This document shows positions 38,601-41,600 of a stretch of DNA of 64,000 bases, piece by piece. The notes under the pieces were generated by a model that did not search any database, was not told the origin of the DNA, and saw only the letters and a program-made list of their open reading frames with translations. The translations under genes and the position numbers were made by a program. The DNA comes from Otis tarda (lineage: Eukaryota; Chordata; Aves; Otidiformes; Otididae). Within the stretch, counting starts at the first letter, position 1. Each line of letters starts with the position of its first letter. Location of the stretch: positions 13,658,001-13,722,000 of the forward strand of contig CM048560.1 in assembly GCA_026413225.1 (NCBI GenBank), written 5' to 3'.

Positions 38601-41600
38601 ACCAGAAGTCAGGTGTGCTGCTGGATTCCATTTTGCATAAAACCTCTCTTCAGATACTACAGAGATCTGTAAAGACATTGAGATTTAAGCAAAAAAATCA
38701 ACAACTCTGAAAAAAAGAAAACCAGCTGCAGGTCTCAACTATATAATCAATTCAAATTTCATATGAAAGCAGACAATCCCAAGTAATAAGAGCTAGTAAA
38801 CTGCTTGGAATTCCAAGTAAACAATGTTAAAATATATGTTCCAGGACAAGAAGTTTACATTTTAAAAAGTAACTTAGGAGTTAAATTGTAGACACATACC
38901 TGGTGTGGTACTAGTTCATCATAGCCTTTGGTGCTTCCTGTAGCACAGCACGCCATGGAAACAATCATTGCACTAGGAAGAGCATCATATGCAGATCGGT
39001 GCTATATTAAAAAATAAACATGTAATAAATAGTGAAAAAAAAGACATAATTCATCCCTCCCAATTCCGCATATACTCAGTTTAACAGAGGAACTGCTAAT
39101 CATATGATCATCACTTTCTCAATCACTATAGAATTATTAAAAAAAAAAAAAAGCTTCAAATGCACTAACAAAAGCAACTTAAGAGAAATTCTCAAAAATA
39201 AGCACTCCAATTTCCACCATTCTCTCTCATTCTTTCCTGTAAAACAGGAGCTTAGGAGAACAACAGAGACAGAGCCACTTATAGCAGCTGGCATGAAAGA
39301 ATCAAACCAGCTGATTAAGCAGCTTTATATACTTTTTCCCTCGAAATACAAAATGTTGAACATCAGAGGAAGTTACAAAATTTTACTCTCTGCATTTGAA
39401 GATCTGAAACACATTTTTGCTAAATATCGCTCAGGAAAAACATCCAGATTGCACCAAGCCCTCCCATGGTTCAGAAATATCAATTCAGAAAACATTAAAT
39501 GTAAACTCTGAGTTTTGATTTAGGTGCTCACCTGAATCGGACATTCATTATCATGTGTAATATCCATAAACAGTGCATGAGCAATAGCTGGCATCAAAGG
39601 CCTCAAACGTGGCTGAACAAAAGAGCCAACAGGTTCACCTCCAAACCGATAAACTAACCTTCCCTCTTCATGGCTATTATAAGCACTCATTGCCTCTGAA
39701 GAGCAAAATAGGTTAAGTGTTTGCATAAGAGTAACTACCATAGAGTACAGCATGCACAAAGACGTTAATGCAGCATTTTACAGTTGTTATTTTGGTGTGT
39801 TCAATCATAAAACAAACAAAAAAAATCACATATAACTATATTGTCCAGTGTGGATATACAACCTTGGAGTATTTCATTTGCTATAATATATTAAGGTAGG
39901 GAAAGCTAAGGGAGAAAAAGGGAGAAAAAGGCAGAGACCTGAAACTGTTTCTCATAGGCTTTAAGAAACTCATGCAACAAAAATCAGACATGATGCAGCA
40001 CTTGCGTAGCAGAACTGCGCTACAACTTCTTTTTCTCTTGCTAGAACAAGAGTGAAATATTTAACTTTCTGTAAACTAATGCAGAATGTCTTCTTTTACA
40101 GCTAGTATTGTATTTGTTGCTGAGTATCAAAAAAAGTTACAATATAAAAACTGTACTTGTGATTACACGGAGTGGGAAATTAAAAGTGCAGAATCCGGAA
40201 GAAACCTTTTCCTTGGAAAAAGCACGTCATCTATAATCTCTCATTGGAAAGAGCCCACATATAGAGCAAGCCTACCTCTTATTAAGGAGGTAATGCCCAG
40301 CCTATTCACAAAGATATTGTCCAGCTCCTCATTTCCTGTGAACAGTTCAGCCACTACATACAAATCGGCTCGCAATTTTCTAGCTGTGTCCAGCATGTAC
40401 TGCAAAAAGCACAGCCAAAAAAGCCACAGAAAGGGAAAAGGTAGATACAAAAAGGGACAAGTTTCAAAGCTAGGCAGGGATTGGACAACAGGAAAATGTC
40501 ATGCAGCAAAGACAAACAGAAAGCCAAAATTAAGGAACAAAAAAAGTTGTTATACAGAAGAGGACATACAAACATAAGCAAAATCAAGAATTAGCATACA
40601 ACACAGGAGAAATTAAATAGAACATGATGAAGAAAAGGTAATTGCATAAGCGAAGAACAAGAATATGTAAGAAAAATAAAAAAGCAAACCAATGTTAGTT
40701 TCACATTAAAAACTCCAAACCATACACAACAATCCTACATAATTTTCAACTGCTTATTGTACCTCTAATCAGGCTGGTAATTCCCAGGCGGTTGACAAAA
40801 ACATTGTCAATGTACTCACTGCCCGTGAAGAGTTCAGCTATCACATAAAGATTAGGTCTGACTGATCTGGCTGTTGCTAGCATCTCCTATAGATCATAAT
40901 ACATTTTTAATGCAAGACATTCACGGTCAGCTTTGTATATGCAATCATTAACATGACTTAACCAAACATAAACGAGTCATTCACATATGCAGTTCATTAA
41001 AAAATATTAATAACAGGTAAGATTCATAAAACCATGTTTATATTTTATAGAGATTATTTATGGACCGAGTAATTCTAGGAAATTCTCTGAAGACTTTAAG
41101 CTAATTAAAACTTTGTTTTTAAACAAAATCTTAACTCAAAATGCAGGAACAAAGGTTGGATAAGAGAAATACCTGTTAAGATAAGAAATCTGAGGAGGAT
41201 TTCTGTTTAAGCATTCTAAGTTACCATTCCAAAAATCGTAACAACAAATGAAAGAATGGCAGAAGTTTTAAGATGGCTCCATTTAAGATCCACTCAAAAC
41301 TTTTGTGTGGACAAATCAACTTGTTTTAGAGAGCTCACCATAGATTTAGGTAAGCTCCGTAACCAGGCTAAAACCAAGCACTAACAAGCTGCACTACTCA
41401 AATCTATTTAAAGCTAATTTAGTAGATAAGTACAATTTCTGGATGTAGTAACCTCTGTGGTAAACAATAAGCACTAATCTTAGCAACACGCATGCTAGAC
41501 TAAACTTTTTGCAGATGTTCTTTACCAGCTTTTAAATTCTGGGAAGTAAACCACTTTCTATTTAATTCGCCAATAGCAAAATACATATGGCAAAGAAACA

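Follow-up and report, generated by a model that had tools for sequence, protein, structure and literature searches.

A tandem copy of the exon carrying the acid/base residue of the debranching enzyme AGL in Otis tarda: a probable pair of mutually exclusive exons

Introduction

To our knowledge, animals are usually taken to have a single debranching enzyme each, and in the standard description of human AGL the isoforms differ at the 5' end. Loss of the enzyme leads to glycogen storage disease III (PMC4837477). A stretch of 64,000 nucleotides from Otis tarda (GCA_026413225.1, contig CM048560.1, positions 13,658,001 to 13,722,000; hereafter the window) raises the question of whether a single AGL gene can encode two versions of the segment that holds the catalytic acid/base residue, and whether both versions are used. 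A sequence-only reading of the window had proposed a duplicated, mutually exclusive exon at this place. Here, we examine the proposal by way of the gene model, the reading frame, the constraint on the two copies, their age, the position of the segment in the enzyme, and the splicing signals that surround the pair.

Results

The AGL gene and its duplicated exon 12

The AGL coding region is complete in the window (Table 1) and encodes a protein of 1530 aa with exon A or with exon B alike, in a gene model whose splice sites were chosen by guidance from the human protein. Its sole non-GT donor is that of coding exon 15, which apparently ends at a GC donor (CAG/gcaaga; window 38513-38508, minus strand). 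Long overlapping open frames occupy both strands at 55608-57104, a region of 69% GC with a CpG ratio of 0.8 that spans the first AGL coding exon; these are probably a CpG-island promoter and not genes.

Table 1. Positions of the AGL features discussed in the text, numbered from the first letter of the window.
Feature	Position	Strand	Basis
AGL coding region, complete, 33 coding exons	20556..55901 (read from 55901 to 20556)	-	gene model
Coding exon 11, ends in phase 0, common upstream partner	41963..42150	-	gene model, human 8zeq and fungal GDE alignment
Exon B, alternative copy of exon 12, 124 nt, 41 residues	40763..40886	-	sequence, tblastn
Intron between B and A, 363 nt, pyrimidine-rich	40400..40762	-	sequence
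Exon A, exon 12 of the AGL model, 124 nt, 41 residues	40276..40399	-	sequence, gene model
Coding exon 13, common downstream partner	39532..39695	-	gene model
Four UGCAUG (RBFOX-type) motifs, starts 41877, 40505, 39976, 39756	39751..41877	-	motif count

A tblastn search with exon 12 against the window recovered exon B at an E-value of 1e-17 and, among the 33 AGL exons tested, exon 12 alone had a second match at E<=0.01; exon B is therefore not a chance match. As expected of a mutually exclusive pair, the copies are homologous neighbours with compatible splice sites and equal phases: each is preceded by AG and followed by GT, is entered in phase 0 and left in phase 1. Aligned, the two share 85 of 124 nt and encode the same amino acid at 30 of 41 positions, 15 of these 30 by different codons. 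The sequence-only reading had given this geometry (coordinates, lengths, splice dinucleotides, phases, residue identity and the 363-nt spacing) together with the count of synonymous codon differences, and all of it proved exact on recheck.

In the Otis tarda genome (1,198,220,595 bases in 116 contigs, only the best candidates being scored), a 99-residue probe composed of exon 12 and part of the next exon matched the AGL locus only, with three exon-level matches. A whole-gene duplicate or retrocopy of AGL was rejected because, among the best candidates scored, this probe matches a single locus. In the viral and prokaryote collections searched for relatives, none was confirmed.

The reading frame leaves one copy per open product

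With a single copy included, whichever it is, the frame stays open; with both or neither, it closes early. Where exon B is joined to exon A, translation continues as V H A G H S and meets a TAG as the seventh codon of A, so that double inclusion ends at codon 584, and skipping of both copies gives R Q stop, which ends at codon 539. The earlier claim that the frame forces one copy per open product thus holds. By an established rule, a stop located well before the last exon junction is expected to trigger nonsense-mediated decay; both premature stops are so placed, and decay of both transcripts is expected. Such a frame relation comes automatically with every phase 0/1 exon that is copied in tandem, and for this reason it accounts for the exclusivity of the product but is by itself weak evidence for exclusive splicing, and no independent evidence that exon B is used.

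The pair bears the marks of protein constraint over its history

Comparison of A with B yielded a dN of 0.25 and a dS of 1.44 (NG86), or 0.27 and 1.12 (LWL85), and 8 of the 12 comparable fourfold sites differ. The bootstrap median of dN/dS is 0.17 with a 95% range of 0 to 0.43; saturated resamples were scored as 0, and the upper bound of dS is poorly defined. Selection on the protein, which had been proposed from the codon differences with dN/dS as its check, is accordingly found at ~0.17 for the pair, as an average over the pair's history in one genome.

We simulated free decay of a copy in 4000 runs per level, starting at A with zero prior differences, a choice that favours a recent death of exon B. 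An open frame, AG/GT boundaries and <=11 changes persisted in 21% of the runs at 0.15 substitutions/site and in 6% at 0.2; the chance fell to 0.003 at 0.3, and none of the 4000 runs passed at each of 0.4, 0.56 and 0.72 substitutions/site. Given the 21% survival at 0.15, the simulations exclude a long death of exon B, but not a recent one.

Over the 41 residues, A departs from the human protein at 10 positions and B at 11 (4 positions changed in A only, 5 in B only, and 6 where both differ), so that B is not clearly faster-evolving than A. Both copies, scanned as 180-residue segments, match debranching-enzyme profiles with the catalytic Glu kept. TIGR01531 gave 342.1 bits for A and 342.8 bits for B, its cut-off of 1399.55 bits being a whole-protein value out of reach for such segments; PF14701 gave 123.2 and 122.5 bits, which passes its cut-off, in a match that covers just the first 14 exon residues, as the profile ends at segment residue 64, before the Glu. 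The human entry scored 366.7 bits with A and 362.2 bits with B, and the best fungal entry 198 and 195.7 bits.

Ranked by strength among 33 sites, with matrices built from the AGL gene's other sites, the donor and acceptor of A stand 20th and 14th, and those of B 24th and 28th. Exon B is the weaker exon, yet it falls inside the range of splice sites that AGL uses; it could be used rarely. By the dN/dS of the pair, its count of changes from human, its profile scores, its retained Glu and its splice sites, exon B looks functional.

The duplication is old

Across 300 nt of flanking intron, A and B show no clear similarity (z of 1.2 and 0.9, compared with 25 for the exons), from which it follows that the duplication is old, as had been supposed from the codon differences. 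Recent gene conversion between the copies was considered and rejected because synonymous differences are found along the whole exon, including a TCC/AGC serine switch; by exon thirds, nucleotide identity is 25, 30 and 29 of 41. In a quartet with the human and fungal sequences, the best topology unites A and B (delta lnL 0.77, the other orders not being rejected). If that topology is right, the exon was duplicated after the split from mammals.

Residue identity over the 41 positions is 31 between human and A, and 30 each between human and B, A and B, and human and fungus. For comparison we used neighbouring stretches readable in the solved human and fungal entries, picked after the data had been seen, where identity is 72/76 between Otis tarda and human and 46/76 between human and fungus. 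Exon 12 is not less conserved than these neighbours between human and fungus (30/41 vs 46/76, P 0.22), and is less conserved between human and Otis tarda (31/41 for A vs 72/76, P 0.005). With neighbours chosen post hoc, and with eight other AGL exons sharing 67-75% of their residues with human AGL, this lowered conservation between human and Otis tarda is suggestive.

What the swap changes in the enzyme

The catalytic acid/base Glu is present in both copies, as the sequence-only reading had it: in each, the residue (Glu554) aligns with the proton donor Glu564 of CgGDE. The nucleophile Asp is encoded upstream, in exon 11 (GVRLDNCHS), and its fungal counterpart in the alignment is Asp535. Three residues common to A, human and fungus are altered in B (537, 540 and 552), and three common to B, human and fungus are altered in A (547, 548 and 559). 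To judge by the GH13 fold, the differences between A and B lie mostly in the helix that precedes the catalytic strand and in the loop that follows it.

Both isoforms match the human entry (8zeq) over the whole 180-residue stretch and, like it and the Candida glabrata entry (5d06), keep the acid/base Glu; each of these entries holds one version of the segment, whereas the Otis tarda gene encodes two. The fungal equivalent of exon 12 comprises residues 547-587, and the substrate contacts named in the accessible part of the fungal source fall elsewhere, the catalytic residue excepted. The earlier description of alternative active-site segments goes further than the evidence. Tandem segments bearing the acid/base Glu are indeed there, but the catalytic residue is unchanged, and the accessible part of the source names no other substrate contact within the exon. 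The differences between A and B would more likely modify kinetics, stability or contacts with partners than abolish activity.

Splicing signals around the pair and comparison with OGDH

A branch-point-like CTGAC motif lies 41 nt before the acceptor of B. In the 100 nt before the acceptor, pyrimidines make up 49% for B and 73% for A, and 74% for the exon 5 acceptor. Between the copies lies an AG-free run of 243 nt (40714-40471) that starts ~48 nt past the donor of B; counting the bases of exon B as part of the model's intron 11-12, it is the longest of 1867 AG-free runs in AGL introns (the next has 120 nt), and the most pyrimidine-rich 240-nt window of these introns (73%) also sits between B and A. 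When sequences were simulated on the composition of this intron, 3.6% held a run of 243 nt, compared with 0 of 2000 simulated on the gene's other introns. Two branch-point-like motifs follow the donor of B, TTAAT at +57 and CTAAC (within AACTAAC) at +68. The run is closed by a YAG 70 nt upstream of A (window 40471), which could act as a poison acceptor: spliced to exon 11, it brings a stop two codons on. Taken strictly, the zone from A to the nearest AG is thus 70 nt, a length that three other AGL acceptors exceed.

The motif UGCAUG occurs four times in the 2019 nt of the three surrounding introns, where 0.64 are expected (Poisson P 0.004, uncorrected, for one of nine patterns examined), and RBFOX control of the choice is on this count worth testing. 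Preferential use of the copies in liver and muscle would be a guess, hinted at by the UGCAUG excess and by AGL splicing in goose liver. A study of the Lion-head goose reports seven genes, AGL being one, that act as co-expression hubs and are also differentially spliced in the liver of overfed birds; its text does not name the AGL event.

A known pair with which the AGL exons can be compared is formed by exons 4a and 4b of OGDH. According to PMC7969005, branch points near the upstream donor and far from the acceptor bar joint splicing of 4a and 4b; they lie at +25 to +41 in the human gene, and the steric limit is quoted as ~50 nt from the upstream donor. The same text places the motif DADLD in exon 4b and ESDLD in exon 6, the latter outside the exclusive pair. 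In Otis tarda, OGDH 4a/4b is intact (C23:72000-73800, minus strand), and its 129-nt intervening intron holds two motifs, at +29 and +39, after which an AG-free zone of 95 nt and 84% pyrimidine runs up to the 4b acceptor. Both genes thus have a tandem pair in a metabolic enzyme, separated by a short intron (363 nt in AGL) with an AG-free, pyrimidine-rich stretch. They differ in that the AGL run is broken 70 nt before the acceptor of A, and in that the nearest yUnAy motifs of AGL, judged at motif level, lie beyond the positions of both OGDH genes and the quoted limit. Furthermore, the swapped segment holds a calcium-binding motif in OGDH and a catalytic residue in AGL. Elsewhere in OGDH, a 389-nt AG-free tract precedes the ESDLD-coding exon 6 (C23:66300-68300, minus strand; 1324-1713 within the region), which is not known as an alternative exon; a long AG-free run thus need not mark an exclusive exon.

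Discussion

Most likely, though short of certainty, the two copies of AGL exon 12 are old, functional, mutually exclusive exons, their transcripts being what we infer from the gene model. An ancient tandem duplication of the exon, perhaps on the bird line once it had separated from mammals, would have been followed by retention of both copies, each transcript joining exon 11 to B or A and then to exon 13. The products would be two 1530-residue enzymes with 11 differences in the 41-residue segment that surrounds the acid/base Glu in the glucanotransferase barrel, with double-inclusion and double-skip transcripts removed by nonsense-mediated decay. The choice would probably be made by competition between B, with its near CTGAC motif and weak pyrimidine tract, and A, with its long tract and possibly distant branch points, with modulation by RNA-binding proteins.

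Pairs of this kind are known in vertebrates. They are homologous exons inside folded domains, as here, and in 60% of the mutually exclusive clusters of the human catalogue (PMC5740500) double inclusion shifts the frame, the exon length being indivisible by three as in AGL. The catalogue's main text does not mention AGL, and among open-licence PubMed Central papers, main texts being what was searched, we found no report of this AGL exon pair; it may already be present in genome-annotation entries, as predicted isoforms, or in catalogue tables.

The most direct alternative is that exon B worked for most of its history and is now dead or nearly unused, skipped in favour of A as the sole working exon. 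The low ranks of its acceptor and donor would fit such a fate, as would the loss of residues 537, 540 and 552 and the survival of free decay at 0.15 and 0.2 substitutions/site in simulations whose start favours this outcome. We nevertheless regard it as improbable: exon B has no frameshift, stop or loss of a splice dinucleotide, its five private changes are no clear excess over the four of A, A has itself altered three otherwise shared residues, and the profile scores of the two are nearly equal. Somewhat less improbable, while still unlikely, is that both copies are used at a constitutive ratio without regulation by tissue or state. In its favour, the signals that hint at regulation, UGCAUG and the pyrimidine tract, go no further than motif level; the long constraint and the divergence of the pair, however, suggest distinct roles without showing regulation, and AGL splicing does shift in overfed goose liver, by an event that the goose study leaves unnamed in its text.

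Within the preferred reading of mutually exclusive exons, exclusivity itself might be steric, enforced as in OGDH by distant branch points near the donor of B. The TTAAT and CTAAC motifs inside the longest AG-free run of the AGL introns, a length that the composition of the gene's other introns never reproduced, are consistent with this, as is the comparable layout of OGDH 4a/4b in the same bird. We find the idea doubtful, however. The YAG at -70 ends the run, and its use would give an early stop; both motifs lie past the limit quoted in PMC7969005; the intron's own composition does at times produce such a run; and a longer one precedes OGDH exon 6, which lies outside the 4a/4b pair.

The pair is of interest because it affects a catalytic part of a core enzyme that is encoded at a single locus in the Otis tarda genome. 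Switching of this part of the barrel by splicing would add a new point of control over glycogen use, and it would be a natural experiment that reveals which residues close to the acid/base Glu tolerate change. More tentatively, and with the odds somewhat against it, birds and perhaps other sauropsids may possess two debranching isozymes made by swapping the acid/base segment, both copies having diverged fast from a segment conserved from fungi to human, such that the swap would adjust glycogen breakdown to the tissue or to the state of feeding.
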